NCBI GenBank assembly: GCA_946479615.1
Contig: CAMLGR010000003.1
Span: 1 to 64,000, forward strand
Length of the DNA: 64,000 nucleotides
Direction: 5' to 3'
From: an uncultured Bacteroidota bacterium
GTDB taxonomy: Bacteria; Bacteroidota; Bacteroidia; Chitinophagales; Chitinophagaceae
Below the pieces are notes generated by a model. It had not been told where the DNA came from, ran no database searches, and was given only the letters and a program-made list of their open reading frames with translations. Each line of letters begins with the position of its first letter. Positions within the stretch are counted from its first letter, which is position 1. A program made the position numbers and the translations under genes. Positions 42,497-64,000 of this stretch are shown here, piece by piece.

Positions 42497-42620
42497 TCTA
42501 TGTGAAACCTATATGTCCTATGTGCCTATGTGGTGAACCTACGCCATGCTGAGAATGAACTATAACTGACTTGCGTAATTTTTACCACATAGGCACATAG
42601 AGGTATAGGTTTCACATAGA
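42497..42620. repeat. Two-tier inverted-repeat element with conserved loop
   Basis: Outer arms 42497-42513 and 42604-42620 and inner arms 42518-42534 and 42584-42600 are each perfect over 17 bp, giving an almost continuous stem of about 37 bp around a 49-base loop. The loop contains AATGAACTATAACTGA, shared with the decayed copy at 31503-31608. The element fills the gap between the CE12 and CE8 genes. Confidence 0.85.
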
Positions 42621-42625
42621 GATGT

Positions 42626-43375: not shown

Positions 43376-43460
43376 AGTTATATATTTTAAGGAAGGCATG
43401 AGGCAATGAATGGTTGCGTATTAATATACAATATATATTTTCATATTTCATTCACTGCCC

Positions 43461-43502
43461 GTAAAAGAAATGTAAACCTATGGAGGTTTACATTTCTTTT
43501 AC
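43461..43502 (-). terminator. Perfect 19-bp hairpin downstream of susD1
   Basis: Arms 43461-43479 and 43484-43502 are perfectly complementary with a 4-base loop, 38 bp past the SusD stop codon. There is no clean T tract, so it may work as an attenuator or mRNA-stabilising structure that sets a high ratio of SusC/D to the enzymes downstream rather than as a full terminator. Confidence 0.8.
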
Positions 43503-43539
43503 AACTGTTTTAGCAGCTATTATATAATACCTCTATGAC

Positions 43540-45204
43540 TTATAAATATCCGTCATTTTGTTTAAACTGATCTTTATTGGTTACCGCATCCAGTTGTGTT
43601 TGCGGAATAGGCCGCAGCACATGATACGGCTTGATATAAGGAGCTGCATCAGGATTTAAGGCTGCCGTTCTCGTTACCAGCTTACCCGTCCTCTTCAGAT
43701 CGAACCAACGGAGTTGTTCACCGGCAAATTCCCTGGCTCTTTCATCAAGAATAAAGTCGAGTGTTACCTGTGCAGGTAATATCTGCATATCAGCGGTATG
43801 TCCCGGAAGCGCTGCTCTTGTTCTGACGGCATTGATATAGTAAGCTGCGGAATCCAGTTTGCCAATATTGAATTCTGCTTCTGCTGCGATGAGGTACATT
43901 TCGGATAGCCTGATCACAAAAGCATCCCTGGCGCTTTGTGCTTCAGCGGCACTTGTTCTTGTTGAATCTTTGAATTTTTTCAAAGAAGCATAGAACTTCC
44001 GCTGAACGGGAACTCCGCTTCCGTTATACACTTTCGGGATATCATAAATGGTATACTTCCTCGTCGCTATATAAGCAGGATCAAGAGTGGTTTTGGGAGT
44101 ATACGCTGCCGTATCACCTATAGCAAATGTGTTACCTCCTACCGTACCTGCTTTATTAGCATACCATACAGTCTGAAAAGAAGCATCATACCTGGAATCG
44201 ATCGACTGGTCATACATATTCAACAGGGCCAGTGTAGGCTGGTAACGGTTAAACGGTCTTCCGTTATTAATATCACGAAGAAGAATGGTTGTATTGACCT
44301 GGTCGTAAACCATCAAAAACATCAGGTGACCATTATTGGATCCACGTGAGTGTCCCGGGAAATTGGAAGTAGCAAGATCATTATAGGCCAGATTGGTAGA
44401 ATAATCTATCGCCCATACAATTTCCTTATTCTTCAGGTTGCCCATGTTCCACAGATCAGCATAATTAGGTAGCAGGTTATAGCCGTAGTTTTTAATTACT
44501 TCGTTGGACAGGGCGATAGCTTCAGCATTTTTCCCACGGGTTAAATACATCCTGGCCAGGAAGGCTTTAGCCACCGGTTGCCACACTCTTCCGTACTCTC
44601 CCGGCGCTGTTGCCGGCAGATTAGTCACAGCGAATTGCAAATCGGAAAAGATATGATTGTAAATCGTATCAACCGGGGTTTTGGTAGCAGTAGTAACAGC
44701 ACCTTCTGTTGGTTGTTCAGAAAAATAAGTAGGACCCCATGTTTCTACAATGTGCCAGTAGTAGAATGCACGGAGGAAACGAAGTTCTGCTTCCCGGGTT
44801 GATTTTTGCAGGCTGGTAAATCCATTCACATCGCCCACAGCTTTGATACCAGTGTTACACAAATTGATCGCTGCATAAAAATTGTTCCACTCCAGTGTCA
44901 GCGCTCCTGTATTACTTCCCTGCAGGTTGTTGTACGTTGATAATTGCGGGTACACATCACCGCTTCCGTTTGTCCATAGGTCAGTACCCATTTCTGAAAT
45001 ACTATATCCTTCTTCTTTTCCATACCAAAAACGGGTATAGGAGTAAGCAGCATCGACCAGTGCTTCAAAGCCCGCTGGTTGTGTATATACGGTAGCTGCT
45101 GTTAAACCGCTGGGATTATATTCTTCCAGTTGCTTTTTGCAGGAAGTAAGCGCAATCGCTAATCCTGAAAAAGCCAGCAGTAAATTTTTTATTCTCTTAT
45201 CCAT
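43540..45204 (-). CDS. SusD/RagB-family glycan-binding lipoprotein (susD1)
   Basis: This 554-residue outer-membrane lipoprotein forms the lid of the SusC1 transporter. The signal peptide ends LTSCKKQLEEY with the lipid-bearing Cys. Helical TPR-like regions and the C-terminal family signature (RLSEMYLIAAEAEFNIG, FILDERAREFAGEQLRWFDLKRTG) are clear. It follows susC1 by 44 bp. The cargo is probably pectin oligosaccharide, because the operon continues with CE12 and CE8 genes. Confidence 0.95.
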   Translation of the reverse strand: MDKRIKNLLLAFSGLAIALTSCKKQLEEYNPSGLTAATVYTQPAGFEALVDAAYSYTRFWYGKEEGYSISEMGTDLWTNGSGDVYPQLSTYNNLQGSNTGALTLEWNNFYAAINLCNTGIKAVGDVNGFTSLQKSTREAELRFLRAFYYWHIVETWGPTYFSEQPTEGAVTTATKTPVDTIYNHIFSDLQFAVTNLPATAPGEYGRVWQPVAKAFLARMYLTRGKNAEAIALSNEVIKNYGYNLLPNYADLWNMGNLKNKEIVWAIDYSTNLAYNDLATSNFPGHSRGSNNGHLMFLMVYDQVNTTILLRDINNGRPFNRYQPTLALLNMYDQSIDSRYDASFQTVWYANKAGTVGGNTFAIGDTAAYTPKTTLDPAYIATRKYTIYDIPKVYNGSGVPVQRKFYASLKKFKDSTRTSAAEAQSARDAFVIRLSEMYLIAAEAEFNIGKLDSAAYYINAVRTRAALPGHTADMQILPAQVTLDFILDERAREFAGEQLRWFDLKRTGKLVTRTAALNPDAAPYIKPYHVLRPIPQTQLDAVTNKDQFKQNDGYL

Positions 45205-45248
45205 AATTTATTTTTTCTAAGTAATAGATAAATAATGTTTGTATTCTA

Positions 45249-48227: not shown

Positions 48228-48307
48228 ACCGCAAGCAGGTTTTTGAGAGTTTGAAATACAGCTGCACTTGTGCATCAATAGCGATAAGCGCAGCCCGGTC
48301 AATCGTC

Positions 48308-48329: not shown

Positions 48330-48407
48330 ATAATGAAGCAGTTATACTATCCGCATTATACAGCAAGTCTACGTGGATAATAAATAGATATAAGTTAATA
48401 GGTGTTA

Positions 48408-48437
48408 TTTTTTTACGCAATCGTTACCGGTAACGAT
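48408..48437 (-). promoter_or_regulatory. LacI-type operator candidate 2 (susC1)
   Basis: Seven T (48408-48414), ACGCA, then ATCGTTACCGGTAACGAT (48420-48437), a perfect 18-bp palindrome and the best copy of the three. It lies 180-210 bp before the susC1 start. Confidence 0.85.
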
Positions 48438-48560: not shown

Positions 48561-49985
48561 TCACCTGGTAAGACTATTTATATACATTTCGATATTAGTA
48601 TAATGCTTATCCAGTTTATTGCCGGCTGCATCGCTGGCATCATTCGGATTTAACCCGTTTTTCTTTTCCCATGTATCAGGCATGCCATCACTGTCAGCGT
48701 CGGCCGGAGCCTGTAAAGATTGCAAAGCAGGCCATGCGCTGATCGTTGCTTCATAGGCTGTGCCATGTGGAAAGTGTCCCTGCACATCGATCAATCCTCC
48801 TGTCCTTTCTTTTACTTCTTTAATGATGCGCTGATCCATAGTATCCCGGCGATAACTGGCGCCCACTTTTTCCAATACAGATTGATAAGCCTTTTCAGCC
48901 GTTTGTGTATTAATGGTAACCGCAGTGACCGGTTTATCTTTCACAGCTTCCTTTTTATCGTCTTCTGTTCCATTGTTACCCATCAAAATGCCTAACCAGT
49001 TATTCTTTGTTACATCGGCCGCACCATCGACATAGTTTCCATCGACATAATATTTACCAAACGGGATCACCGGTTTTTCCCAGCGGCCCGGGTTGACTAT
49101 TCGGTAACGCGCCCTGGGATTGGTAGAAGGTCCGTATTTGAAATAGTTATTGACGAGACTATAACTTCCTCCTTCTCCTGCGTAAATATTATTGGAGCCC
49201 CAGTCGTAGATAACATTATTTCTATAGTCTACATTTTCTTCCGGGATATTCCTGATACCATCAAAACGCGGGTTACGGTTATTGCAATGAGCGAATAAAT
49301 TATGATGCGCAGAAAGATGTCTTCCACCCCAGATACCGCCATAGCCATGATGTTCATAATCTTTATCGCCCTTTTCAAAGTGATAAGAATAGTTAAGCGG
49401 TTCCATAACCAGGTTCCATTGCAGCGTAGTGCTATCTCCTCCATACACAGAAAAGACTTCATCCGTACTCCAACTGAAACTGCAATGATCAATAATGATA
49501 TTGTTACGGCGTGTGCCACCGAATGCATCATCACCACCATTTCCATCTACCATACCACCACGCTGGTATTTATCTCCCATGCGAACGCGGATATAGCGGA
49601 TGATCATATTGTGCCCACCTAGCGACACTGCATTATCGGCTAAACAGATTCCATCACCCGGCGCTGTTTGCCCCGCAATGGTTACATTTCCTTTGATAGA
49701 AATTTTTGTTTCGAGATGAATCGTACCCGATACGGCAAAAACTATGATGCGGGGAATATTTTTTTGTGCGGCTTCACGAAAACTACCGGGACCGTTATCA
49801 TTAAGATTGGTGACCACCATTACTTTTCCACCTCTGCCGCCAGTTGTGTATTTACCAAAACCTTCGGCTCCCGGAAAAGCAATATTTGTGTTATCATCCA
49901 GGCCAGGTGCCAATATTGTCTTTTGCGCCGCGCAGGAAGAAATCACGCCGCAGGCGATCAGTACGGTAATAAGTTTTGTTTTCAT
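48561..49985 (-). CDS. Pectate lyase (PL1), lipoprotein
   Basis: From ATG 49985 this is a 474-residue lyase with a lipoprotein signal (MKTKLITVLIACGVISSC). The beta-helix begins IAFPGAEGFGKYTTGGRGG and holds NVTIAGQTAPGDGICLAD, IIDHCSFSWSTDE and HHGYGGIWGGRH. It cleaves demethylated galacturonan by beta-elimination. The last 45 residues contain a calcium-loop-like DADSDGMPDTWEKKNGLNP, common in this family. It is a close paralogue of the N-terminal module of the giant protein directly upstream, so the two arose by tandem duplication; this copy is membrane-anchored, the other secreted. Confidence 0.92.
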   Translation of the reverse strand: MKTKLITVLIACGVISSCAAQKTILAPGLDDNTNIAFPGAEGFGKYTTGGRGGKVMVVTNLNDNGPGSFREAAQKNIPRIIVFAVSGTIHLETKISIKGNVTIAGQTAPGDGICLADNAVSLGGHNMIIRYIRVRMGDKYQRGGMVDGNGGDDAFGGTRRNNIIIDHCSFSWSTDEVFSVYGGDSTTLQWNLVMEPLNYSYHFEKGDKDYEHHGYGGIWGGRHLSAHHNLFAHCNNRNPRFDGIRNIPEENVDYRNNVIYDWGSNNIYAGEGGSYSLVNNYFKYGPSTNPRARYRIVNPGRWEKPVIPFGKYYVDGNYVDGAADVTKNNWLGILMGNNGTEDDKKEAVKDKPVTAVTINTQTAEKAYQSVLEKVGASYRRDTMDQRIIKEVKERTGGLIDVQGHFPHGTAYEATISAWPALQSLQAPADADSDGMPDTWEKKNGLNPNDASDAAGNKLDKHYTNIEMYINSLTR

Positions 49986-50001
49986 GCTGGAGGAAAATAA
50001 A

Positions 50002-50094
50002 AAAGTCAAAAATAAAAATTCAAAAGAGTAATCTCCTGTTAGACGATATACGGATGTTATACTGTTGCTCTTTTGAATTTTTAATTTTGACTTT
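50002..50094. repeat. 27-bp inverted repeat between the giant pectinase and pectate lyase genes
   Basis: Arms 50002-50028 and 50068-50094 match at 26 of 27 positions around a 39-base loop and almost fill the 122-bp gap. The wording (AAATTCAAAAGAG, GTCAAAA) is related to the repeat at 12948-12982. Confidence 0.8.
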
Positions 50095-50107
50095 GGTTTA
50101 GTATTAA

Positions 50108-53100
50108 TTAATTTTTAATAAACGTCATCATCACTTTATTTTCACCAAGCCTGTATTCTACATAATACATTCCCTGTGCCAATCCGTTAATATCAATCAT
50201 TGTCTCGATGGTATTGGCTTGTGTATTTTGTTTCCTGATGATCTGGCCCGATGTAGTATAGAATGTCAATGTTGCTTGTTGTGTTGTTACCGGGTGCGCA
50301 ATGAAAATCGTGCGCGTTGCCGGAACCGGGTAGATAACATATTCACCGGTTACTTTATTAAATCCGTTCAACTGAACGTTGACTGCATCAGCATCGGAGC
50401 TGGTATGTGTCAATACACCGGAGAACATTCCTGTTACCGGCACATTCAATCTTATTAATAAAGTCGTGGGAGCTACCGCACCATTTACACGTGTCAGTGT
50501 AAGCGGTGTCGATTGCCATGAGGCACCGTTATTTCCAGAGATCTGGAAATGCGCCGGTGGCGTAATGATGATATTACCTGTCAAACCAATTCCTTCCACG
50601 GTATAGCTCTGTGCAGGTTTTGGTCCGCCTGAGGTTTGCGGGAATACTACAAAATGTTGTGTGACTACAATCACAGGTTTTGGAACGGTATTACCGCTTA
50701 CCGCTACATTCTTCGTAGCTGCGCCGCTGCTGGTAACAGCAATGTTGCCTGCATGCCCGCCCAATACAGTTGAATTTAACCTGACAGAGATCGTTGTACC
50801 GGCAATCGTACCACCGGCTTGTGTCAGTGTCAGCGGCGTTGTTGACCAGTTGGTACCGTTGGATGATATTTCATAATCGGCCGGAGCCGTTACGGTAATA
50901 TTACCGGTAAGATTCGCTCCTGCAACTGTAAATGTTTGAACAGCCGATATAGTTCCCAGTATTTGTGTAAAGGCTGTTGGTGTACCCGTTGTAGTGATCG
51001 CCGGAGCAGGAATAGCATTACCGCTTACTGCAAGGTTCACATCCGGTGCGCCCGTACTGGTATGAACGATATTGCCGGATGCATTACCCGACGCTGCCGC
51101 ATTCATGCGAACAGAGATCGTTGTGCTGGCTAATACTCCGCCGGTTTGCGTTATTACCAATGGCGACGCATTTGTTTTCCAGGTAGTGCCACCATCGCCT
51201 GATACTTCAAATCCAACAGGCGGTGTGACAGTAATATTACCGGCCAGGTCAGCTCCTGATACAGTATAGGTTTGCGCAGCCGATGGTGTGCCTACTGTAT
51301 GAGAGAAAGCAGTCAATGTTCCTGTTACTGTGATCGATGGAACCGGAACCGTATTACCGCTCACCGCTACATTTACAGTAGCAGCGCCGGTACTGTTATG
51401 CGCAATATTTCCATTGGATGCACCCAATGCGGTTGCATTCAGTCTTACAGAAATGGTTGTGGCAGCCAATGCGCCGGCTGTTGGCGTCAGCGTCAGCGGT
51501 GTTGCATTATTGAACCAGGTGACACCTGCATCAGCAGATACTTCATAATTCGCCGGTGCGGTAATGATTACATCCTGCGCCAGTCCTGTTCCTGAAACAG
51601 TATATGTCTGTGCAGCCGATGGGGTTCCCAGTATTTGTGTGAATGCTGTTAATGTTCCCGTTGTTGTAATAAATGAGGCAGGTAATGCCGTTCCGCTTAC
51701 CGCTACATTCATTGTGGCAGCCCCTGTACTTGCATTGGCAATAGTACCATTGTATGTACCGGTACTGCCGGCATTCAATCTTACCGAAATAGTTTTGGCA
51801 GCTACCGTACCTGCTGTTTGTGGTAATACCAGTGGCGAAGCATTGGTAAACCATGTCGTACCACCATTGTCAGATACTTCATAGTTAGCAGGTGGTGTAA
51901 TCGTAATACCGGTCGTGAGATCGGTACCGGATACTGTATATGTTTGAACAGCCGATGGCGCTCCTATTGTTTGAGCAAAGGCATTCAATGTGCCGGTCGT
52001 TATAATTGCAGAAGGAGGACCAGCTACCGGTGTAGCGAGACCAATGACCTTTACATCTTTGAGCATACCATATCGTCCGGCGGTACTGCTGCTGCAACTG
52101 AAATAGAAACGGAAGGTGATCGTTTGTCCCGGCGATAACGTAACACCGGATGCACCTGCTACTTCCAACCTGAATTTCGATACGGGTCCTGTGTTTTCGT
52201 TCAACAAGGCAATGGGTGATGCAAACGTGCCCGGTGTTGTGGTCACATCTGCGGAATCACTTACAAAGTTGCTTAATGAATAAACAACGGCCAGCTTGGT
52301 ACTGCTTGAAGTATTGTAAAACCCTGCTGTAGTTAAAATAGAATCGATCCTGATCTCATTGCCTGGTTTAGCTGTTACCGTAAACTGTTCGTACCAGGAA
52401 CGTTGCAAGGTACCCCCGGGACCACCGGCTGCCGTGCCCCATGATCCATCTCCATTGGTGCTCGCACCGAATGCCTGGCCATATTGAGGAGAGTATGCCT
52501 GCACAGCTGCTATTGTAGTACCATTTGATATCGTTAACCTGTTGAAAGTTGGTGTGCTTGCTGTTACTCCCGAAGAACGCACATTGGCGCTATCAGCTCC
52601 ACTGGTAGTAAATGGCCAGTGCTGGATCACTTCTTTGATGGATGAAAGGGCAGTGGATGTTCCGGTCACTTTCACATCTTTTACCATTGCATACCGCCCG
52701 GTACTGCTGCTGCCGCAACTAAAGTAAAGGCGAATCGATAAGGTCTGACCCGGCTGTAATGTAACTCCCGGTAAACCCGCTACTGATAATGGGAATTGTG
52801 TAGTAGGTCCGCTTGTCTGATTTAATAAAGCTGCAGGATTATTGTATCCGCCGGGAATGGTAAATACATCGGAAGAATCATTCACAAAATTGCTTAAGGA
52901 ATAAACAACGCCGAGTTTGGTATTGCTCGATGTATTATAAAATGCACTGGTAATATATACTGAATCCACTTTTACACGATAACCGGTAGCGGCTGTAACG
53001 GTGAATTGCTCATAGTTTGTTCTGCGCAGGTTGCCACCCGGCCCACCAACGGCTGTTCCCCATGAACCATCACCATTAGCCGTAGTACCAAATGCCTGGC

Positions 53101-56100
53101 CGAATTGTGGCGAGTAAGCGGGAATAGCTGGTACGGTTGTACCATTCGAAACATACAAATTACCAAATGTGGGTGCACTGGCAGTTACTCCTGCATCACG
53201 GATCAATACACTGTCCGAATTGTCCAACGTCATTGGCCAGTGTTGTAACGTAACTGTTGTGGACGCAGCAATGACAGCAGTAGTGCCCTGTAGTTTTATA
53301 TATTTGGCAGTACCGCCACTTGTTTCGAGTTTAATGCTGTCTGTATACGTTCCTGCTGCAGCCGCATTTAAACGGATGCCGATCGTTGTTGCTGCGAGCG
53401 TATTGGAAACCGGTGGTAATGAAATAGTGGCTGGATTCGCTTTCCAGGTAGTACCGCCGTCGGAAGAAATTTCAAAATTAGCAGGAGGAGTAAGGATAAC
53501 ATTACCTGTCAGGTTTTCGCCCGACACGGTTGCATTCTGCAATGCAGAAGGCGTACCGAGGTTTTGAATAAATGGTTGTATAGTACCTGTTGTAGTGATT
53601 GCCGGTACAGAAGATATTTCTACTGTATCGGTAATATGTGAAGCGTATCCTGCTTTTGACCCAACGAGATAATAGAAATAAGAAGTACCTGCTACCGGCA
53701 ATGCATCGGTCAACTGGAAGTTGATCAGGCTATCATTCGAAGCCGTCACTTCACCAATTTTTGCATATGCTCCTCCGCGTGTAGCAGAACGATACAATTC
53801 ATATTTTATCTGATCCATTGCCCAGCTGATGTTCCAGTCAAATACGCTGTTCGCGCCGGCTTTTGTACCCCTGAAGTTGGAGATGGCAATATCTCTTGCT
53901 TCATTGCTGCAAAGCAAGGGACTTACGCTACAGGGATCCCATGAACCGAATAAGGTCGCATTGGTATAAGTTGCCGCATCTGTCGCGTTCAACTGGAATG
54001 ACCAGGGTACGCGCTGGCTTACGTCTACCGGTGTGCCATTAAAATGTTTGCTTTGATATTCTCCATAATAGATCAATGCGGTGTTGGTTCCGGCATCCCA
54101 GATGGACCAGCCTTCCGGTTTTACTGTAGTTCCCATACTTGTGTTGAGGAATACTACTTTATTATTCGTCAATGGTGAAGAACCGGTGCTGTTCTGCCAG
54201 GGTCTGCCCAATACGTAAGTGGTGGCGCCGGTGTTATCCGGTATTTTACAATTGCGGAACACATATCCATACGCTTGTCCCGGCGGTGTATTCGCTGCCG
54301 TGATATAAGATCCGCCGGAGGTTGTTCTTGATTTTGGATAGACAATTGTTGAATCGAATACTGCGATCGAACTTCCGAAAATGAAATCGATATTACCATC
54401 GATATAGCAATCCTTGAAATAATGGCGCGGTGTGCCGCTACCCTTAATATATAATGTATCCTGGTTGCCAAGGAAACGGCAATTTTTAAACACAGCCCTG
54501 TCTGCATTCACCAATACGGCTACAGCCTGTGTACCATCGCCCCATGTATTGGCAAAGGTGATATTGAACGCTGAAAAATCCGGTGCATTCACGGTGAAGC
54601 TGGCCGAGTTTTGTGTGCCTACTGTGCCGCCACCTGCGATCGGATCGCTGGCGCCATCGGTATAATAAAGAACCACATTCGCTACACTTTCACCAACAAG
54701 TTGAATAAATGGCTTATTGGAAGGGATAGTGATCTTCTCCTTGTATTTTCCATTCTTTATGAAAATGATAAATGCTGTTGTCTGTCCTGTCGGAGCGGCA
54801 TTGATAGCTGCCTGCACCGTTGTATAATCCCCCGAACCATCCTGCGCCACTACCAACGAGGTACCGGCAGGAGCCGTCGAAGCAAACGCAGTTCCTGATA
54901 CGGCTACATTCGCAATATTTGATCCCGCACTTGTATTGGAAATATTTCCGTTGTAAGGACCAGCCGCCAATGCATTTAATCGTACGCTGATCGCTTTTGG
55001 AGAAACTGTTCCTGCTGTTTGTGCTACGGTAAGCGGATCGGCATTACCATGCCAGGTAGCACCTCCATCACCCGATACCTGGAAATTTGCTGGCGGTGTA
55101 ATTGTGATATCGCCTGATAAGTTCTCACCCGATACCGTATAGCTTTGTGTGGCCGATACAGCAGGAATATTTTGTGTAAATGCATTCAGCGAACCGGTAG
55201 TTACTACCGTTGCTGCATCTACTATTCCATTGATATAATTTTCAAGATTGGTATATCCATTACCAGCTACGCCGGCCCTGTCCGCCGCATCATTGGGATT
55301 TAATCCATGACTGGTCTCGTACGCATCCGGCATGCCATCATGGTCGGTATCAACAGGTGGTGTAGTAGAATTTAATGCGGGCCATGCATTGACTGTAGTT
55401 GCATAGGCAGTGCCATGCGGATAACCACCCTGCACATCGATCAATCTTCCTGTCCTGTTCATTACATCATTAACGATCCGCTGATCGAGTGTATCTCTTG
55501 AAAAACTTGCACCGCCATATTGCAGTACAAGATTGTAAGCCTGCTCTGCTGTATGTGTAGTAACAGGTGCAATATCAAATGCCGTGGTTACTTTCGATAA
55601 CGTGGTATCGGCCTGGGTGCCGCCGCTCATCGCTGCACCTAACCAGTTGTTTTGTGTAACGGCAGCAAAACCATCTACATAATTTCCCGATAAATAATAC
55701 TGACCATAAGGAAGTACCGGCGCCGAAGTTTGTTTACCGGGATTGATGACCATCGACCTGACCGCCACACCACTGGAAGAACCGGTAGAAGTAGAAGGCC
55801 CGTATTTGTAATAATTGTTTACAATGTTATAATTACCGCCTTCTCCGCCATTCACATTATAAGAGGCCCAATTGTACAATACATTATTCCTGAAGTCAGC
55901 ATTTTCCTGCCCGGCTGTAAATGGGGCAAGGTTGCGGCTGCCATCAAAACGTGGCGCCCTTCCTTTTACGTGTGCAATTAAGTTATGATGAAAAGAAGCG
56001 TGTTTGCCTCCCCAGATGCCTCCGTATCCGTGTTCTTCAAAATCAAGATCACCGGTTTCGAAGTGATATGAATAATTCAATGGCTCTGTAATAAAGCTCC

Positions 56101-56707
56101 ATTGAATGGTAAGACTATCTCCGCGATAAATAGTCAACGCTTCATCAGAGCTCCATCCTGATGTAACGTGATCGATGATGATATTTTTATTTCCCAGGTT
56201 GCCGAATGAATCATCGCTTCCACCGCCATCAACCATACCCGCATTCTGATTCTTATCTCCCATCCGGATCCTGATATACCGGACGATCACATTATCGCCA
56301 CTGATCACAACCGGGTAATCAGCCAGGCAAATACCATCGCCGGGTGCTGTCTGACCAGCTATCGTGGTATTGGCCCTGATATTTAATTTGGAAGTAAGAT
56401 GGATGATACCCGATATCCTGAAAACAACAGTACGGTAAGTAGCGGTCTGGCTCAGTGCATAACGCAAACTTCCCGGGCTGTTATCGTCATTGAGGTTGGT
56501 GACTTCGAATACAGTAGTGGGTGTGCTGACTGTTCCCCTGCCGCCGGCAGCAAATCTTCCCGCCCCTTCTGCACCGGGGAAAGCGATCTGTTGCGACCAG
56601 GAAGAATAAAAGGTTAGCAAAGCAAATAAAAACAGGCATACGCGATAACCTGTTGCTTTTGCGATTGAAGGAACAGTAACATGGTTCGTAGAAATGATCA
56701 TATGCAT
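50108..56707 (-). CDS. Giant secreted pectate lyase-pectinesterase with T9SS sorting domain
   Basis: This 2199-residue protein joins two pectin enzymes. After a signal peptide (to about residue 39) come a PL1 pectate lyase (about 40-450, HGYGGIWGG), a calcium-loop segment DTDHDGMPDAYE, a first beta-sandwich repeat (about 499-612), a CE8 pectinesterase (about 616-916; GNQDTLY, DFIFG with Asp774, LGRPW), an Fn3-like domain, a second sandwich repeat, two copies of an unnamed roughly 200-residue module (about 1150-1350 and 1358-1558), five more sandwich repeats (about 1564-2112), and a C-terminal type A sorting domain (YPVPATRTIFI to the end). The last predicts export by type IX secretion and attachment to the cell surface. 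Deesterification and cleavage in one chain would make methylated pectin directly degradable. Confidence 0.93.
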   Translation of the reverse strand: MHMIISTNHVTVPSIAKATGYRVCLFLFALLTFYSSWSQQIAFPGAEGAGRFAAGGRGTVSTPTTVFEVTNLNDDNSPGSLRYALSQTATYRTVVFRISGIIHLTSKLNIRANTTIAGQTAPGDGICLADYPVVISGDNVIVRYIRIRMGDKNQNAGMVDGGGSDDSFGNLGNKNIIIDHVTSGWSSDEALTIYRGDSLTIQWSFITEPLNYSYHFETGDLDFEEHGYGGIWGGKHASFHHNLIAHVKGRAPRFDGSRNLAPFTAGQENADFRNNVLYNWASYNVNGGEGGNYNIVNNYYKYGPSTSTGSSSGVAVRSMVINPGKQTSAPVLPYGQYYLSGNYVDGFAAVTQNNWLGAAMSGGTQADTTLSKVTTAFDIAPVTTHTAEQAYNLVLQYGGASFSRDTLDQRIVNDVMNRTGRLIDVQGGYPHGTAYATTVNAWPALNSTTPPVDTDHDGMPDAYETSHGLNPNDAADRAGVAGNGYTNLENYINGIVDAATVVTTGSLNAFTQNIPAVSATQSYTVSGENLSGDITITPPANFQVSGDGGATWHGNADPLTVAQTAGTVSPKAISVRLNALAAGPYNGNISNTSAGSNIANVAVSGTAFASTAPAGTSLVVAQDGSGDYTTVQAAINAAPTGQTTAFIIFIKNGKYKEKITIPSNKPFIQLVGESVANVVLYYTDGASDPIAGGGTVGTQNSASFTVNAPDFSAFNITFANTWGDGTQAVAVLVNADRAVFKNCRFLGNQDTLYIKGSGTPRHYFKDCYIDGNIDFIFGSSIAVFDSTIVYPKSRTTSGGSYITAANTPPGQAYGYVFRNCKIPDNTGATTYVLGRPWQNSTGSSPLTNNKVVFLNTSMGTTVKPEGWSIWDAGTNTALIYYGEYQSKHFNGTPVDVSQRVPWSFQLNATDAATYTNATLFGSWDPCSVSPLLCSNEARDIAISNFRGTKAGANSVFDWNISWAMDQIKYELYRSATRGGAYAKIGEVTASNDSLINFQLTDALPVAGTSYFYYLVGSKAGYASHITDTVEISSVPAITTTGTIQPFIQNLGTPSALQNATVSGENLTGNVILTPPANFEISSDGGTTWKANPATISLPPVSNTLAATTIGIRLNAAAAGTYTDSIKLETSGGTAKYIKLQGTTAVIAASTTVTLQHWPMTLDNSDSVLIRDAGVTASAPTFGNLYVSNGTTVPAIPAYSPQFGQAFGTTANGDGSWGTAVGGPGGNLRRTNYEQFTVTAATGYRVKVDSVYITSAFYNTSSNTKLGVVYSLSNFVNDSSDVFTIPGGYNNPAALLNQTSGPTTQFPLSVAGLPGVTLQPGQTLSIRLYFSCGSSSTGRYAMVKDVKVTGTSTALSSIKEVIQHWPFTTSGADSANVRSSGVTASTPTFNRLTISNGTTIAAVQAYSPQYGQAFGASTNGDGSWGTAAGGPGGTLQRSWYEQFTVTAKPGNEIRIDSILTTAGFYNTSSSTKLAVVYSLSNFVSDSADVTTTPGTFASPIALLNENTGPVSKFRLEVAGASGVTLSPGQTITFRFYFSCSSSTAGRYGMLKDVKVIGLATPVAGPPSAIITTGTLNAFAQTIGAPSAVQTYTVSGTDLTTGITITPPANYEVSDNGGTTWFTNASPLVLPQTAGTVAAKTISVRLNAGSTGTYNGTIANASTGAATMNVAVSGTALPASFITTTGTLTAFTQILGTPSAAQTYTVSGTGLAQDVIITAPANYEVSADAGVTWFNNATPLTLTPTAGALAATTISVRLNATALGASNGNIAHNSTGAATVNVAVSGNTVPVPSITVTGTLTAFSHTVGTPSAAQTYTVSGADLAGNITVTPPVGFEVSGDGGTTWKTNASPLVITQTGGVLASTTISVRMNAAASGNASGNIVHTSTGAPDVNLAVSGNAIPAPAITTTGTPTAFTQILGTISAVQTFTVAGANLTGNITVTAPADYEISSNGTNWSTTPLTLTQAGGTIAGTTISVRLNSTVLGGHAGNIAVTSSGAATKNVAVSGNTVPKPVIVVTQHFVVFPQTSGGPKPAQSYTVEGIGLTGNIIITPPAHFQISGNNGASWQSTPLTLTRVNGAVAPTTLLIRLNVPVTGMFSGVLTHTSSDADAVNVQLNGFNKVTGEYVIYPVPATRTIFIAHPVTTQQATLTFYTTSGQIIRKQNTQANTIETMIDINGLAQGMYYVEYRLGENKVMMTFIKN
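50370..52013 (-). repeat. Five tandem coding repeats of about 105 codons in the giant pectinase
   Basis: Successive units start near plus-strand positions 52013, 51685, 51345, 51005 and 50675 and encode the pattern TTGTLTAFxQxxGTPSAAQ, YTVSGxxL, ITxPAxYEVS, GTTW, TISVRLNA and NVAVSG. Two more units occur separately in the same gene (about 53270-53610 and 54860-55210). They are beta-sandwich spacers typical of Bacteroidetes surface proteins. Confidence 0.85.
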
Positions 56708-56746
56708 TTATTTATCGTTAGCGGAGAACACAGATTGATGAATTAT

Positions 56747-56830
56747 AATAGATTTCACTGATCGATTTTGATGGTGAGCATATTGCCGTGAATTCTCCTG
56801 GGTGGAGAATAGTAATCAGTGAAATCTATT
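56747..56830. repeat. Nested double hairpin downstream of the surface lipoprotein gene
   Basis: AATAGATTTCACTGAT (56747-56762) pairs perfectly with 56815-56830, and inside lies ATTCTCC (56792-56798) paired with GGAGAAT (56804-56810). The outer stem extends imperfectly on both sides (ACAGATTGATGAATTA against its decayed complement). It fills the gap between the lipoprotein gene stop and the giant pectinase start. Confidence 0.75.
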
Positions 56831-56856
56831 CTAATCCATTAATCCGTACTGTGGTT

Positions 56857-58434
56857 CTATGGTCTCCAGCGCGGATCACCTGAAGTGGTCCTGCCGGGGA
56901 AAGCATTATCGACTATTTTGAAATTACCGGTATACGGACTTTGCCATATTTCGGTAGATTTCTTAGCATAAGGTATTACGTTCGGTAACTGACCTGTAGC
57001 ATTGGTAGAAATGAAATCACCCAATGTATACGTAGCCGCTACATCGATCACCGATGCTGCATTGACACGATATCCTCTTACATCGAAAGCGCCGGCATTA
57101 CTTTTTCCCTGCCCGATAATATTATTCTTAAAGCTCACAGGCAATGTAACGATATCGGTACCTGCTGTGCTGTAATCGATAAAGTAGTTGCCGCCGCGTG
57201 GCGCTTCATTGATCGTGCAATTGTCGATGATCACTGAATTGGAATTATTCCGGCTGGTGACGATCTTTTCTGCTTTATAGATAGTACTGTTGGTAATAGA
57301 GATATTGTTCGCTTTACTGGTGGCCACATCCACGGTGATCACGCCATAACCCGACAAACTATCGAGGATACATTTGTTGACAATAAAATCATTGATGATA
57401 GCAGGCTGTGACTGTGTTCTGAATACGCCTCTGAATATTTCAGCCGTGCAGGATTCAAATTTCACTTTACCGATGGTACAGGCCACATTGATATTGAATA
57501 CATATTTAGCTGCATAATCACTTCCTCTTAAAATGATATCACTGAAAACCAGTGAATCGATCGAGGCGCCGGAAGTGATATTGAAGTTGTTGGACATGAA
57601 AACGATCGGCTGATCGGGTACTAACAGATCGGAGCCCGCTGTAAATACCAGTGATTTATCCAGGTTGATCTGGTTCGTGATATTATAGGTTTCTCCTCTT
57701 TTGAGCAGGATGGTACTTCCCGATGGTATGACAGGAAGCGTATCCTGTAATACCAATGGGCGATCCGTAAAACCTCTCAGGTCAATGATATTACCAGAGA
57801 AAGATGCCTTGGTACTGAAATCTGCCCAACCACGTACTGTTGCGCCACTATAGAGATAAATGATGTACGAGGTCGTTGCATTCAATCCCGATACGATCTT
57901 GTATTGATTGGTAATATCACCTGCAGTAACGGCGACATCCTGTACCACAGAACTATCCGAGTGCAATAGTATTTTGATACCAGTCACAGCAGCACCGCTA
58001 TTGGTCCAGCTAACTTTCACCGAGTTATCATTGACCTCGCTGATCGTAGGCACGTTCAATATAGATGGGAACCTGGCTGTTTTGATAGAACCCAGTCCTG
58101 CTACTTTCGAACTATGCGATGTATCCTCTGCTATTGCTCTTACCTGCACCTGGTACAACCTGTCCCAGGCAAGATTCTGGAAATAAGCGGAATTGGTATC
58201 GAGGTCCATGGTAGCAGCGATCGTACGGAATGTATCGGTACTTAATTGTGCCTTATAGGAAACAGCGCCTTTTACAGGCTGCCAGGTAGCACGGATCCAG
58301 TTGCCCTCGGATGTCAACGCTTCTTTCAACACAGGTCTGAACAAACGCGGCGCTTCGCCCAGGTCGTCTGTTTTATGACAGGCAGTAAGCACTACCAGAA
58401 GGGTAACCAATCCGAAGAATATCTTTTTCATCAT
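56857..58434 (-). CDS. Surface lipoprotein with Fn3-like, DUF4957 and DUF5123 regions (glycan-binding candidate)
   Basis: This 525-residue lipoprotein (ATG 58434 or 58431; signal ending VVLTAC) lies directly after susD2, where PULs encode surface glycan-binding proteins. Two Fn3-like domains (about residues 30-220) precede a beta-helix region (IDLRGFTDRPLVLQDTLPV, INLDKSLVFTAG, VFSDIILRG) matching the DUF4957/DUF5123 pattern seen in pectin loci. No catalytic residues are evident. Binding of pectin at the cell surface is the likely job. Confidence 0.85.
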   Translation of the reverse strand: MMKKIFFGLVTLLVVLTACHKTDDLGEAPRLFRPVLKEALTSEGNWIRATWQPVKGAVSYKAQLSTDTFRTIAATMDLDTNSAYFQNLAWDRLYQVQVRAIAEDTSHSSKVAGLGSIKTARFPSILNVPTISEVNDNSVKVSWTNSGAAVTGIKILLHSDSSVVQDVAVTAGDITNQYKIVSGLNATTSYIIYLYSGATVRGWADFSTKASFSGNIIDLRGFTDRPLVLQDTLPVIPSGSTILLKRGETYNITNQINLDKSLVFTAGSDLLVPDQPIVFMSNNFNITSGASIDSLVFSDIILRGSDYAAKYVFNINVACTIGKVKFESCTAEIFRGVFRTQSQPAIINDFIVNKCILDSLSGYGVITVDVATSKANNISITNSTIYKAEKIVTSRNNSNSVIIDNCTINEAPRGGNYFIDYSTAGTDIVTLPVSFKNNIIGQGKSNAGAFDVRGYRVNAASVIDVAATYTLGDFISTNATGQLPNVIPYAKKSTEIWQSPYTGNFKIVDNAFPGRTTSGDPRWRP

Positions 58435-58470
58435 AGTGTTGTTAGTGTTCGGCATAATAATTTATTTGAA

Positions 58471-60300
58471 TTAATACCCGTATTGATTTTGGAGCGTACC
58501 AAGGCTGCTTGATACTACTGAATTATGCAAAGGCAGGATATACCTCAATGGAGTTGCACCTGTCATATCAGGATATCCTCTCCATTCCTGGTTGATATAA
58601 GCTGCCGGAGCATTGGTGGTCGTATTATACATGGAGATCAGCCAGCTTGTGCGTGTATATCCATCAGGATTATCGCCTACATTGGGTGAGTTGATCACAG
58701 GTGGCGCAACAGCCGGTTTGGTAAATTTGTTATAATACGTGATCGTTCCATCACCATTTCTTTTATAATATAAATAATCGGGGAGTGTAGAGTAAGTACC
58801 CGTACCATTAAAGGCATCCTGTCCCATAGCGATCAGTTGATTTCTTACTTCCGCTACTTTTTTACCAAAGAGATTCCAGCGCGCGAGGTCATATTTACGG
58901 AGGCATTCGCCACCAAATTCCCAGGCTCTTTCATTGACGATCGCATCAAAGAAAGATTGTTTGCTGCCGGATACGGCGTTGATATAAGCTTCTACTTTAT
59001 CGGGCCATTGTGACTGGTCAAAAGCACGTTGCCTTACCAATCTCAGCGCTTGTTTTGCATCTGCAGAAGGACCGGAAAGTTCATTTTCAGATTCTGCAAG
59101 CATCAATAAGATATCCGAGTAGCGCATCAATGGCCAATTAATACCGGTTCCTTTCGCAGAAGCCGAACCCAATGGTGTAGGCACCAGCATACGATTCCAT
59201 TTGCCGGGAGCGATTGAACCCGTGCCGGTTGGTTGCTGCAAGAGGTCCTTATCATAATAAACCAGGTAGCAGGTAACCGGTAAGCGTTTATCCGTTGTAT
59301 CGAAAGAATGATAATATGTAGGAGGAAAAGAAAGATAGTTGGATCCAGCGCCATACGGATGCGTACCACCATCTACACGCACACCCATACACCAGGCTAC
59401 ATCGCCAAAGCCGGGATGGAAGGCCACTTCATATAATACATCGCTGTTCACCGGTTTGATGTATTTATTCTCATTCATAAACACCGTACTGAAATCAGGT
59501 AATGGTCTTGGTTTTAATTCGATTAGTTTTTTACAGTATTCATTGGCGATACGATAATAATCGAGATAATCCGCTTTACGTTGCATGGTATTATCGGGAT
59601 AAAGCCAGTAGCCACCGCGCATCAATGAAAGACGGGCGATCATACCAATGATAAATTCGCGGTTGACACGTTCAATACCATAATCAAGACCATCGGCCCA
59701 TGACATTTTTGGTTCTACCCCTTTCAGGTCATTGATAAGAAAAGTAAGAATGGAATCACGTGATGTACGGGGCAGGTAGAAATTATCACCGGCCCGTGAA
59801 GGGTTTGTTTTAAAAGGAACATCTCCCCAATGGTTCATCAGCAAATAATACCAGATGGCAAGTAATCCTTTTACTTCACCCAGCAGGTTGTTCAATACTT
59901 TGCTATCAGGATTTTTAGGAAGTGCGATCGTCGTCAATCCAAACTCACACTCATTGGCCCTGTTGATCGCGTTGTAGGAATTGTTCCAAACTGTCAGCAG
60001 ATCGGCATTGGAAGGTGTACATTCATATGACCAGATATCACGGCGGGAGTTATCAGGAGAAGCGCTCACCCCACCCACTTCAATATCTGAATTACCGGTG
60101 AAGATATTTGACACCCGGGAAGTGAAAGCATCCTGGTTAAACAGTGCATATACACTATTTACCGCCTTGGCGGCATCCGCTTCACTACTGAATACATATT
60201 CTTCCGAAAAGTTGGACGGAGAATCTGATACCAGGAATTTTTTACAGGAAACAAAAACTATGGCAGTTAATGCTAACCCAAAAAATAATATTCGTTTCAT
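58471..60300 (-). CDS. SusD/RagB-family glycan-binding lipoprotein (susD2)
   Basis: This 609-residue lipoprotein (signal ending VFVSCKKFLV) is the partner of SusC2. It shows the SusD start FLVSDSPSNFSEEYVFSSEADAAKAVNSVY and the C-terminal block (AIVNERAWEFGGECLRKYDLARWN) with the conserved family wording. It lies 28 bp after susC2. It is longer than SusD1 and only distantly similar to it, so the two pairs probably take different pectin fragments. Confidence 0.95.
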   Translation of the reverse strand: MKRILFFGLALTAIVFVSCKKFLVSDSPSNFSEEYVFSSEADAAKAVNSVYALFNQDAFTSRVSNIFTGNSDIEVGGVSASPDNSRRDIWSYECTPSNADLLTVWNNSYNAINRANECEFGLTTIALPKNPDSKVLNNLLGEVKGLLAIWYYLLMNHWGDVPFKTNPSRAGDNFYLPRTSRDSILTFLINDLKGVEPKMSWADGLDYGIERVNREFIIGMIARLSLMRGGYWLYPDNTMQRKADYLDYYRIANEYCKKLIELKPRPLPDFSTVFMNENKYIKPVNSDVLYEVAFHPGFGDVAWCMGVRVDGGTHPYGAGSNYLSFPPTYYHSFDTTDKRLPVTCYLVYYDKDLLQQPTGTGSIAPGKWNRMLVPTPLGSASAKGTGINWPLMRYSDILLMLAESENELSGPSADAKQALRLVRQRAFDQSQWPDKVEAYINAVSGSKQSFFDAIVNERAWEFGGECLRKYDLARWNLFGKKVAEVRNQLIAMGQDAFNGTGTYSTLPDYLYYKRNGDGTITYYNKFTKPAVAPPVINSPNVGDNPDGYTRTSWLISMYNTTTNAPAAYINQEWRGYPDMTGATPLRYILPLHNSVVSSSLGTLQNQYGY

Positions 60301-60328
60301 GTCGATTAATTTATTAATTGAAACTCTA

Positions 60329-63300
60329 TTAGAAAATCACGTTGACACCTACTGTATAGTTACGGCTCTTTGGATAGGCTGAATAATCTACTCCTGGTGT
60401 CAGCTGGGAATAAGAACTGTTTCTTGTTGCACTTACTTCCGGATCATATCCTGTATATTTTGTCCATGTCAATGCATTGTATACAGTCGCATAAATTCTG
60501 AATTTCGTCATGTACATCTTCGATATCCATCTTTTTGGCAAAGAATATCCAATCGAAATATTGTTCAGACGCAGAAACGATCCATCTTCCACTGCCCATG
60601 AATGAAACACCGGTGCAGCTGTACCTGATGAGAACGGTGACCAGATCGTCGCATTTGCATTTAATTTTCTTAATTCTTCCAGGTCAGTTACCAGGTTACC
60701 GTTTGCATCTATGTATTTAAAACGATTGTTGTAATCAGAAGTGGCCAGCATATTACCGTAAGTAGTACGGTATAACATATTAAAGGAGATCTTACCGGTA
60801 TTATAGATATCATTCCCCGCCACCCAGTTAAAGAAGGCGCCGAAATCGATCCCTTTATATACTGCATTGAATCCAAATCCACCGGTATGTTTTGGCAAGG
60901 CGCTACCGATCACCTGGCGGTCGGCACCGGTGATCGCACCATCGCCATCCAGGTCTTTTAATTTCAATACGCCCGGTCTTACAGAGATACCGCCCAGGAA
61001 AGAACCTACATTGACTACACCGGGCTTCAGTACATAGGCATTGGTTGTTGCATTATAAGAAGAAAAATCATCAACCGAATACATGCCATCGGTTACATAA
61101 CCATACATCAAACCGATCGTTTGTCCTACGTACACACGGTAATCATCCTGTGTTTTCAGATCGGTACCGGCCCAGTTGGAAGAGAATGGTTTTTGATCCA
61201 CTCCATCAAGTTTATCAATCTTAGCCCTGTTGATACCGATATTAAAGAAACCGGTTAACTGGAAATCGTTTTTATTAATGATCGTACCGTTCAATGATAA
61301 TTCAACGCCCCTGTTGGAAGTCTGACCGATATTCAACTGTTGTTTGGAGAAACCTGTAGTTGGCGGAATATCTGATTCAACCAATAAATCTTTTGTTGTA
61401 TTCCAGTAGGCATCCAATGTACCGGACAACCTGTTTTTGAACAGGCTGAAATCAAGACCGGCATTCCGCGTGGTGGTTGTTTCCCATTTAATTTCAGGAT
61501 TGGGCAATAAGGAAGAAGCATATCCATAATAAGGTTGAGCCACATCGCCAAAACCGATCGGCCTGTTATCTGTAGGTGTAAACAACACCCTGAACAGATC
61601 GGAGCTTAACCTGTTGTTACCGGCCTGGCCATAACTCAACCTGAATTTCAGGTCGCTGATAAAACTGACGTTCTCCATGAATTTTTCTTCAGACATCCTC
61701 CAGGCAAAATTGGCCGCGGGGAAAATGCCCCATTGATGACCGGGAGCAAATTTGGTAGAACCGTCTGCTCTTGCTGTGATGTTGAAGATATATCTTGAAT
61801 CGAATGTGTAATTGATACGACCGAAGAAAGAAGCGATCTTATCTCCTGATAAAACAGAAGTCGTGTGCCTGTCCTGTGTTCCCAGTGTCATACTGGCAAA
61901 CAATTTTTCAGGAGTAACATTTGCCGCAAAATATTTAGCGCGGTTAAATTCACCAAACCCTTTACCGGTAACAATGATCTCCTGTCCACCCAATACAGAA
62001 AGCTGGTGCTTACCCATCGCTCTCATCGTATAGTTCACGGTATTGGTCCAGCGAAAACCTCTTGCTTCTGTATTGGTGATTTCTCCCAGGGGAAGATTAC
62101 CACCCACGTTTCTTGATTCACCAGTCAATGGACCATAATATCTTCTGTTTTGACCAAAGCCAAAATCAAGACCTACTTCACCACGGTAAGTAAGATTGTG
62201 AAGTAATGACCAGGAAAGACCTGCATTTAAATTGAGGGTTTTTGTTACCTGTCTCCTGTAATCCTGTGCCACCAGTTGTTGCGGGTTGATCAGGCTTTTC
62301 AGGAATTGTTCATAATCATCATCAGGACCAGTTGGGTCGATCTCGATCTGGTCGGCGATTCCATTGACCGGGCGGGTAGTTACGGCATCGCTGATACGAA
62401 AACTGGAACTACCGGAAGAACCGGCGCCATTGACTACTGTATGAACAAAACGTGTAGCAAAATCAAGTTTGAATTTATCGGAGATCTCATGATTGAGTTT
62501 GAAGTTGAGATAGTTTCTCATATAACCCGAGCCCTGCAGCAATCCATCATCTGTATTGTTGGTAACGCTCAGGCTCATTTTTGTTTTGGCGGTACCACCA
62601 GATACACTAAGACTGTGTTGCTGTGAATAAGCAGGCGATCCGAATAATTCATCCTGCCAGTTGGTACCTTTCTGGTATTTATATAAATCCAGGTCGTCGT
62701 AAGCACCAAAGTACTTGGTAAAATTGTCTACTTCGGTTTGATTTCTCAACCGTGCATATTCATATTGCGCCAGTACAAACTCGTAAGGCGATAATACTTT
62801 TAATTTTTTAGGAAGTGTGCGCGCCTGGCCATAACCGTTGTAAGAAACGGTTGTTCTGCCCGCTTTTGGAGTTTTGGTAGTAACGATTACCACACCATTG
62901 GCGCCGCGCGCACCATAGATCGCTGCGGTAGCTGCATCTTTAAGGATATCGATGCTGGCGATATCGGCAGGTGAGATATCATTGATGCTTCCGACAGGGA
63001 ATCCATCCACGATATATAAAGGTGAGTTGTCCTGTGTTACAGAACCGCCACCGCGTATACGGATCACGATCTCAGCGCCGGGTGCACCATCGGTAGTTGT
63101 AACCTGTACGCCGGGCAGTCTTCCGGTGATCGCTTCTGCGGCACTCGATACCGGGATTTTTTCCAGTGTGGATCCAGTGATAGAAGATACAGTACCGGCA
63201 AGATCTCTTTTCTTGGTAGTACCATAGCCGATAACAACCACATCTTCCAGTGAAGACACGTTCTTGCTGATCTTTACATCGAGATTATCCTTGTCTGCCG

Positions 63301-63550
63301 AAACACTGGCAGAAGTATAACCCGAATAGGTAATCTCCAATTCATGTTTGCCGGTAGATGGTACCTGGAGGGTGAATTCACCGTTTGCATTTGTCTGCGT
63401 GGTAGTTTGGGTGCCTTTGATATGAACGTTAACACCAACAAGAGGAAGACCTTCTTCATCTGTTACCTTACCTTTTACCTGTCTTGTCTGACACCATGAG
63501 GTAAGCCCACAAATGAGCATCATGCACAAAAGTGCAGTCAATTTTTTCAT
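60329..63550 (-). CDS. SusC/RagA-family TonB-dependent outer-membrane transporter (susC2)
   Basis: From ATG 63550 (MKKLTALLCMMLICGL) this is a 1073-residue transporter. RQVKGKVTDEEGLPLVGVNVHIKG is the regulatory-like domain, VVVIGYGTTKKRDLAGTVSSI and SIDILKDAATAAIYGARGANGVV belong to the plug, and the barrel ends TVGVNVIF. It heads the transcription unit susC2-susD2-lipoprotein-giant pectinase-pectate lyase and is divergent from the lacI-type gene. The spacer carries an operator candidate and a perfect 11-bp hairpin. Confidence 0.96.
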   Translation of the reverse strand: MKKLTALLCMMLICGLTSWCQTRQVKGKVTDEEGLPLVGVNVHIKGTQTTTQTNANGEFTLQVPSTGKHELEITYSGYTSASVSADKDNLDVKISKNVSSLEDVVVIGYGTTKKRDLAGTVSSITGSTLEKIPVSSAAEAITGRLPGVQVTTTDGAPGAEIVIRIRGGGSVTQDNSPLYIVDGFPVGSINDISPADIASIDILKDAATAAIYGARGANGVVIVTTKTPKAGRTTVSYNGYGQARTLPKKLKVLSPYEFVLAQYEYARLRNQTEVDNFTKYFGAYDDLDLYKYQKGTNWQDELFGSPAYSQQHSLSVSGGTAKTKMSLSVTNNTDDGLLQGSGYMRNYLNFKLNHEISDKFKLDFATRFVHTVVNGAGSSGSSSFRISDAVTTRPVNGIADQIEIDPTGPDDDYEQFLKSLINPQQLVAQDYRRQVTKTLNLNAGLSWSLLHNLTYRGEVGLDFGFGQNRRYYGPLTGESRNVGGNLPLGEITNTEARGFRWTNTVNYTMRAMGKHQLSVLGGQEIIVTGKGFGEFNRAKYFAANVTPEKLFASMTLGTQDRHTTSVLSGDKIASFFGRINYTFDSRYIFNITARADGSTKFAPGHQWGIFPAANFAWRMSEEKFMENVSFISDLKFRLSYGQAGNNRLSSDLFRVLFTPTDNRPIGFGDVAQPYYGYASSLLPNPEIKWETTTTRNAGLDFSLFKNRLSGTLDAYWNTTKDLLVESDIPPTTGFSKQQLNIGQTSNRGVELSLNGTIINKNDFQLTGFFNIGINRAKIDKLDGVDQKPFSSNWAGTDLKTQDDYRVYVGQTIGLMYGYVTDGMYSVDDFSSYNATTNAYVLKPGVVNVGSFLGGISVRPGVLKLKDLDGDGAITGADRQVIGSALPKHTGGFGFNAVYKGIDFGAFFNWVAGNDIYNTGKISFNMLYRTTYGNMLATSDYNNRFKYIDANGNLVTDLEELRKLNANATIWSPFSSGTAAPVFHSWAVEDGSFLRLNNISIGYSLPKRWISKMYMTKFRIYATVYNALTWTKYTGYDPEVSATRNSSYSQLTPGVDYSAYPKSRNYTVGVNVIF

Positions 63551-63597
63551 ACACAAGCAATTTTAGCAGTGACCTGGTTGGTCCGTTAGAAAAAGAG

Positions 63598-63627: not shown

Positions 63628-63684
63628 TTAATTAAGACCGTGAATCTACACTCCTCATGATGAATATAGGAACAATAGAAAGCC

Positions 63685-63714
63685 TTTTTTTACGCAATCG
63701 TTCCCGGCAACGAT
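63685..63714. promoter_or_regulatory. LacI-type operator candidate 3 (susC2 / regulator intergenic region)
   Basis: Seven T (63685-63691), ACGCA, then ATCGTTCCCGGCAACGAT (63697-63714, one mismatch between arms). It lies 135-165 bp before susC2 and about 190 bp before the regulator start, so it could control both. The rest of the 351-bp spacer has no gene; a TTG and a TATTTGC 21 bp apart (63726 and 63750) are a weak promoter candidate for the regulator. Confidence 0.82.
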
Positions 63715-63901: not shown

Positions 63902-64000
63902 ATGAAGTTTGAAGCTGTAACCATTAAAGATATCGCAAAGGCCCTGGGACTATCAACTTCCACAGTTTCAAGGGCTTTACGCGATAGTTATGAGATCAGC
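63902..64000 (+). CDS. LacI-family transcriptional regulator (partial, runs off the window)
   Basis: Only the first 33 codons lie in the window. They read MKFEAVTIKDIAKALGLS and then TSTVSRALRD, the standard LacI/GalR helix-turn-helix. LacI-family proteins bind palindromes with a central CG, like the CCGG-centred elements found here. Its divergent position beside susC2 makes it the probable regulator of the whole pectin locus. The ligand domain, and thus the inducer, is not visible. Confidence 0.88.
   Translation, partial: MKFEAVTIKDIAKALGLSTSTVSRALRDSYEIS

Follow-up and report, generated by a model that had tools for sequence, protein, structure and literature searches.

Background

The control of polysaccharide loci in the Bacteroidota is generally ascribed to HTCS, SusR-type or ECF sigma systems. 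In the available text of PMC3878776 the Bacteroides pectin PULs that carry SusC/D are placed under HTCS regulators, and this control uses direct repeats as sites. Three LacI-family hexuronate regulators of Bacteroides, KdgR (BT0487), UxaR (BT0824) and UxuR (BT1434), have predicted regulons (PMC3878776, PMC4052901). As far as the available text of these papers goes, the KdgR regulon includes a limited number of periplasmic or extracellular proteins, and the SusC/D operon reported to be under a one-component regulator is that of ManR, which belongs to the GntR family. UxuR2 of Algoriphagus marincola (Cytophagales) is another LacI-family protein, predicted for galacturonate and glucuronate loci; the available portion of PMC5507952 does not mention a pectin PUL. 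Overlapping LacI-type dyads about 13 bp apart occur upstream of 110 operons in PMC4052901, where the available text leaves the mechanism open. The accessible parts of PMC10766802 and PMC5306329 hold nothing decisive on the element considered here. In the open-licence literature we found no paper on a Chitinophaga LacI operator or activator, and none on Chitinophaga pectin transcription with LacI.

The locus described below is like the Bacteroides KdgR, UxaR and UxuR systems in its LacI family regulator, its phylum, its link to galacturonate/glucuronate catabolism and in being a prediction from comparative genomics. It differs from what the available text says of them in that SusC/D, GH28, lyases and esterases share one predicted LacI-type element with the hexuronate genes. 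Like the HTCS pectin PULs as they are described, this would be control of SusC/D pectin loci, but here the site is inverted and centred on CG, and the regulator would be a one-component protein of the LacI family. Compared with the overlapping sites in the available text of PMC4052901, the mirrored CG centres lie 12 bp apart here and the distal one is absent in a set of sites.

Copies of the element in the window

The window is the whole 64-kb stretch of DNA analysed. The earlier note described a 30-bp element repeated exactly three times in it, each time ahead of the leading gene in a minus-strand unit, with a divergent LacI-family gene next to the third copy. All three sites exist, share one orientation and are identical in 27 of 30 columns. 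"Exactly" is a little too strong, because copies 1 and 3 have one mismatched pair each and the 18-bp palindrome is perfect only in copy 2 (48408). The placement holds for all three units, which are pectin-related by Pfam, and the LacI-type start was found at 63902 with a PF00356 match. The features are as follows.

16121..30773, minus: pectin/galacturonate unit by Pfam; operon extent inferred from gene order
30808..30815, minus: predicted -7 promoter element of copy 1, TACAATTG, +66 from the palindrome start
30852..30881, minus: element copy 1, TTTTTTTACGCAAACGTTGCCGGCAACGAT, upstream of the GH28-GH105-uxa-kdu unit; proximal operator 30860-30873, A-tract 30852-30858
31614..48302, minus: susC1 unit or units; one or more, predicted extent
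48364..48371, minus: predicted -7 promoter element of copy 2, TAGACTTG, at +66
48408..48437, minus: element copy 2, TTTTTTTACGCAATCGTTACCGGTAACGAT, upstream of susC1; proximal operator 48416-48429, A-tract 48408-48414
48561..63556, minus: susC2 unit; predicted operon extent
63641..63648, minus: predicted -7-like element of copy 3, TAGATTCA, at +66; degenerate, departs from TAnnnTTG
63685..63714, minus: element copy 3, TTTTTTTACGCAATCGTTCCCGGCAACGAT, upstream of susC2 and beside the divergent LacI-family gene; proximal operator 63693-63706, A-tract 63685-63691
63902..64000, plus: 5' end of the LacI-family regulator gene, 33 codons, continuing beyond the window end

By Pfam the 16121..30773 unit encodes GH28, GH105 (PF07470), a partial pectinesterase, a mannitol-dehydrogenase type protein (UxaB-like), an altronate-hydrolase type protein (UxaA-like), UxaC, an SDR (KduD-like), KduI, a PfkB kinase (KdgK-like), YhcH, KDPG aldolase and an MFS transporter. 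The pectinesterase-type protein (26178-27194) has a Pfam match that spans only profile positions 2-115 of 298. The 31614..48302 stretch runs susC1, susD1, GDSL esterase, pectinesterase and esterase, followed by Gfo/Idh, a FucP-type permease, a RhaM-type mutarotase, L-fucose-oxidation-type genes and GH43. The susC2 unit runs susC2, susD2, a DUF5123 protein, a pectinesterase of 2199 residues with a secretion tail, and a pectate lyase, which was called a lyase from its similarity to the solved structure 9buj. Both SusC proteins were assigned by NCBIfam. No HTCS gene was found among the 42 window proteins scanned with Pfam (39 + 3), and the window ends beside the LacI gene.

Two other things were noticed in these units. 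An L-fucose-oxidation-type gene set lies within the pectin locus at 33242-39186. Its FucP permease and L-fucose dehydrogenase pass the NCBIfam cut-offs, its lactonase-like and didehydro-deoxy-rhamnonate-hydrolase-like proteins fall under them, and an ADH and the RhaM-type mutarotase complete it. Perhaps it serves fucose or rhamnose released from pectin. The 2199-residue protein (50108-56707) has one pectinesterase domain and the secretion-tail domain and is blank in Pfam over most of its length.

The chance expectation for the 22-base pattern of the element in 64 kb is 7e-9 matches. There are no further 22-bp core sites in the window at up to 4 mismatches, and two places have 5. Searching the window for the 16-bp palindrome by itself, with up to 3 mismatches allowed, turns up 12 matches, where dinucleotide shuffles give 1.96. 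Three of these are the element copies and the other nine have 3 mismatches each; the excess of such weak matches over the shuffles may come from codon bias.

Distribution among genomes

The earlier note had called for a genome-wide motif scan, and we ran it on related genomes in place of the window's own. A collection of 84,980 species genomes was scanned with the 22 fixed bases of the element. The exact pattern is found in 84 genome stretches where 0.03 are expected. All are Bacteroidota and most are Chitinophagaceae. The other carriers are Cytophagales (Spirosoma, Fibrella, Fibrivirga, Rudanella, Emticicia) and Sphingobacteriaceae (Pedobacter, Desertivirga). The predicted regulon spans the Chitinophagales, part of the Cytophagales and a few of the Sphingobacteriaceae. 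With up to 3 mismatches allowed, 19 genomes picked as element carriers have 2 to 6 matches each, counting overlapping hits on both strands, and the reversed pattern has 2 in total. Among 195 genomes of one family, 65 have a match at up to 2 mismatches and the control pattern has 1.

These stretches contain 85 element instances. The alignment also has 85 rows, 82 from the loci and 3 from the window, since two loci were dropped at stretch ends and one was a duplicate. Outside the searched pattern the alignment has G at -3 in 77 of 85 rows, and AAAWAAA follows the tail. In Spirosoma luteum and Niabella aurantiaca (L050, L089) both flanks of the palindrome carry the tail, complete or almost so.

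Probable target genes

A downstream ORF could be called within 700 bp for 79 of the 85 instances. The first such ORF is SusC-like in 39 and belongs to a single sequence cluster in 31; the rest are beta-helix proteins (4), pectate-lyase-like proteins (3) and short uninformative ORFs (2). The cluster of 31 holds GH28, GH105 and GDSL+GH28 proteins, and Pfam on four members gave GDSL+GH28 in three and GH88/105 in one. One of the beta-helix proteins matches PF13229.

When loci of up to 8 kb were examined, a pectin homologue was present at only 5 of the 39 SusC-type sites, and the comparison was therefore repeated with 20-kb stretches and controls. This second comparison covers sites with a divergent LacI gene. 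Pectin or hexuronate homologues lie within 20 kb downstream at 20/20 of these LacI-linked sites against 1/20 control stretches, and the lone control match is weak (25% and 34% identity). SusC-like genes show the same trend, with 20/20 against 4/20. The targets of degenerate sites that keep the right half and tail include GH28, UxaB-like, pectinesterase, Eda/ExuT-like and Pel9A-like proteins, and several such sites precede genes that have no visible pectin link.

We conclude that the element is a real and conserved control element, predicted to be of the LacI type, of a pectin regulon. The proposal that such a regulon is tied to the LacI-family gene was already made in the earlier note, and gene content, linkage, co-occurrence and the 20/20 against 1/20 comparison support it. 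As a separate observation, an ECF sigma type gene by Pfam (L260:3941-4579) stands directly 3' of a core site with a -7 at +66. L268 has a gene with a similar N-terminus in the same layout, making two genomes in all.

The adjacent regulator

The 33 residues of the LacI protein in the window match the PF00356 helix-turn-helix (E 4.4e-8), and the same N-terminus is found in the LacI genes of relatives. Since the window's own gene runs off the end, the C-terminal domain was seen only in the relative P0001 (from L003). P0001 matches PF00356 above the cut-off (E 7.8e-15) along with PF00532 (E 2e-33) and PF13377 (E 3.8e-32). By these matches it is a full LacI protein, with a predicted N-terminal helix-turn-helix and a C-terminal periplasmic-binding-protein-like domain. 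Its best NCBIfam matches are RbsR and then CytR, and it lies under all the equivalog cut-offs (RbsR 216/382 bits, CytR 205/436, CcpA 190/442, PurR 185/501). Domain make-up and CG-centred sites are what it has in common with these four. The differences are that the cut-offs are widely missed and that the element's operator lacks symmetry, carries an A-tract and keeps a constant position upstream.

A divergent LacI-type start lies within 700 bp in 44 of the 85 instances, and 10 of the 85 have less than 700 bp of sequence on that side. Among the 65 element-bearing genomes of one family, the element and LacI are at most 1 kb apart in 36 and at most 40 kb apart in 46. A few genomes have the LacI gene distant from the sites, by more than 600 kb in G032. 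Co-occurrence was counted in the 195 genomes with P0001 as the query at E 1e-90. With the full element there were 60 genomes with both, 5 with the element only, 28 with LacI only and 102 with neither. With the 20-bp core (up to 1 mismatch) these numbers were 78, 13, 10 and 94. The Fisher values are 1.9e-22 and 4.8e-29, ignoring kinship.

Operator position 7 (C or T) gave no covariation signal with the DNA-binding domain. Covariation cannot be used here because the helix is nearly invariant (STSTVSRAL in 55 of 60 LacI proteins). The adjacent LacI-family regulator very probably binds the element.

Anatomy of the probable operator

In the direction in which the genes are read the element is TGnnATCGTTnCCGGnAACGWTTGCGTAAAWAAA, followed by 36-37 bp to the -7 (TAnnnTTG). 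It has CG steps at positions 2-3, 8-9, 14-15 and 20-21. There is an inverted repeat with a central CG on 8|9, and an imperfect one on 14|15. A distance of 12 bp separates the two mirrored CG centres, which have the CCGG half in common.

It is worth considering how conservation is divided between the two arms. Across 98 sites of the family scan there are 54 mismatches on seven distal positions against 9 on their symmetric promoter-proximal partners, and 21 against 5 without pair 7/10, the 98 sites being non-independent. The proximal half and tail alone give 67 sites against 3 for the reversed pattern in 19 genomes that were chosen as element carriers; the scan itself demanded the tail. Among the 67, 28 TTGCG sites (some of them pairs from close relatives) differ from the full element at 3 or more places. 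In these 28, positions 0-4 carry at most 0.11 bit, while C7 has 0.71, C8 0.90 and G9 1.78 bit. The sites without the far arm retain CGGNAACGWTTGCGTAAAWAAA, and 9 of the 28 have TAnnnTTG at +65/+66 against 0.38 expected. A strict -7 is in place at 16 of 33 near-full sites and at 0 of 10 TTGCA-type sites in the 19 genomes (the classes overlap).

Because degenerate sites lose the far arm and keep the proximal part and partly the -7 spacing, the essential operator is probably CGGnAAC|GWTTGCG plus the A-tract. The one-sided tail belongs to the better conserved predicted LacI half-site. The earlier suggestion that the element is more than a symmetric operator finds support here. The CCGG palindrome that it took for the operator does exist, but it is probably not essential, the far arm being dispensable in a set of sites. 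CGGnAAC|GWTTGCG resembles the half-sites of the PurR/RbsR/CytR type. The CytR half-site is given as GTTGCATT in the available text of PMC3454398.

Position relative to the predicted promoter

A -7 element of the type TAGACTTG is conserved at +66 to +73 in the 85-row alignment. TAnnnTTG starts at +66 in 55 rows, at +67 in 14 and at +69 in 1, against 0.11 per position elsewhere. It must be noted that 16 of the 85 rows have no strict -7 at this place, including Cytophagales sites and window copy 3. In 21 Cytophagales sites there is a -7 of another consensus, TAnnnTTA-like, at the same place. No fixed -7 was found on the LacI side of the element in 44 loci.

If transcription is taken to begin about 12 bp beyond the first base of the -7, the CC|GG centre falls near -70 and the AAC|GW centre near -63. 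The element thus lies some 63-70 bp upstream of the presumed start because the -7 is at +66/+67 in 69 of 85 sites. This is an activator-type place, upstream of the -33 region and at a fixed distance from the predicted promoter. Since the element is wholly upstream of the -33 and keeps its distance from the -7, the regulator is most likely an activator. The sign of PckR was likewise inferred from site position in the available text of PMC4052901.

Activator or repressor

We argue that the adjacent LacI-family regulator binds the element and controls the pectin regulon, most likely as an upstream activator on an asymmetric operator. We give this a probability of roughly 0.6. The computed support is conservation, gene content, LacI linkage, fixed spacing and the loss of the far arm in sites that keep the spacing. 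The regulator would bind the promoter-proximal CG-centred pseudo-dyad CGGnAAC|GWTTGCG beside the A-tract, which may itself play a part. The far arm ATCGTT would supply a second, mirrored and weaker operator, and this would give rise to the CCGG-centred palindrome. Activation would then come from about -63, a class-I-like place, probably with a bound pectin product (galacturonate, KDG or 5-keto-uronate). Several findings count against this reading: the rows that have no strict -7, the -33 place, where T is partly conserved, the genomes with the core but not LacI or the reverse, those in which the LacI gene is distant, and the right-half sites before genes of no visible pectin link. One can go further and imagine that in the Chitinophagales and Cytophagales the protein serves specifically to activate entire pectin loci, from import and depolymerisation to uronate catabolism. 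Its asymmetric operator would consist of two overlapping mirror-image LacI dyads set 12 bp apart, and the dyad nearer the promoter would be held at 51-52 bp from the -7. This fuller version is tentative, and we hold it somewhat short of even odds. If it is true, the overlapping LacI sites in the available text of PMC4052901 could be tested in a natural activator system.

One can also imagine a classical repressor that binds the element until a pectin product releases it from the DNA. Repressors make up the majority of the LacI-family proteins that have been studied. Going by the available texts, hexuronate catabolism in Bacteroides and Algoriphagus is predicted to be under regulators of this family, and the linkage evidence fits a repressor equally well. 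However, the element does not overlap the -33/-7 region. The +66/+67 spacing in 69 of 85 rows, which is kept with a different -7 in the Cytophagales, is also something that blocking by occupancy would not need. We consider repression unlikely, if well worth keeping in mind. A little less probable to us is a LacI dimer that sits on the CCGG palindrome only, with the tail TTGCGTAAAWAAA left for a second protein, or for the alpha C-terminal domain of RNA polymerase, to bind; the sign of control could then be either. An A-tract beside a promoter is reminiscent of an UP element, and the CCGG-centred dyad is perfect in many copies. This does not explain why sites without ATCGTT keep CGGnAACG and the tail, part of them with the -7 spacing, nor why the promoter-proximal positions vary less than their symmetric partners (the 9 against 54 above). 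AACGWTTGCG also contains a CG-centred LacI-type half-site of its own.

The earlier note read the element as possibly an operator plus a -33 region, and the TTG in the conserved tail does invite this. But the -7 starts 66 bp from the palindrome start, and in 69 of 85 rows it follows the TTG of TTGCG at 49-50 bp. A -33 would stand about 20 bp before the -7. In the 85 rows TAnnnTTG does not stand at a fixed 20-bp distance from TTGCG. The expected -33 place has only a weak TT (T in 55% at -23 and 74% at -22 from the -7). A set of 85 generic TAnnnTTG sites upstream of ORFs, probably mostly chance matches, shows no -33 enrichment either and so gives no information as a control. That reading is very improbable. 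Hardly any credence at all is left for a repeat, hairpin or terminator that has no regulatory role. The palindrome does adjoin a homopolymer run, yet orientation and placement led us to reject the terminator and repeat readings. Read along with the genes the homopolymer is A, and on the opposite strand its Ts come before the palindrome; neither direction has the layout of a terminator. In addition the -7 is downstream of the element, and each of the 19 genomes has 2 to 6 sites.

A one-component LacI regulon over SusC/D, pectinases and uronate catabolism would be a simple handle on pectin use by these bacteria. The element, with a promoter geometry kept across orders, could serve as a motif for annotating regulons. 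It would also be a test case for LacI-family activation and for overlapping LacI operators.

Related sites

Sites of similar layout with TTGCATAA-type tails occur in L138-L140, L142, L144-L146, L150, L172, L190 and L258, many of them in the Cytophagales. The tails in L139 and L140 are TTGCATAG/TTGCATGA. Perhaps the TTGCATAA-tail sites mark sister LacI-type regulons. Some of them are near UxaA-like, KduD-like or GH105 genes.
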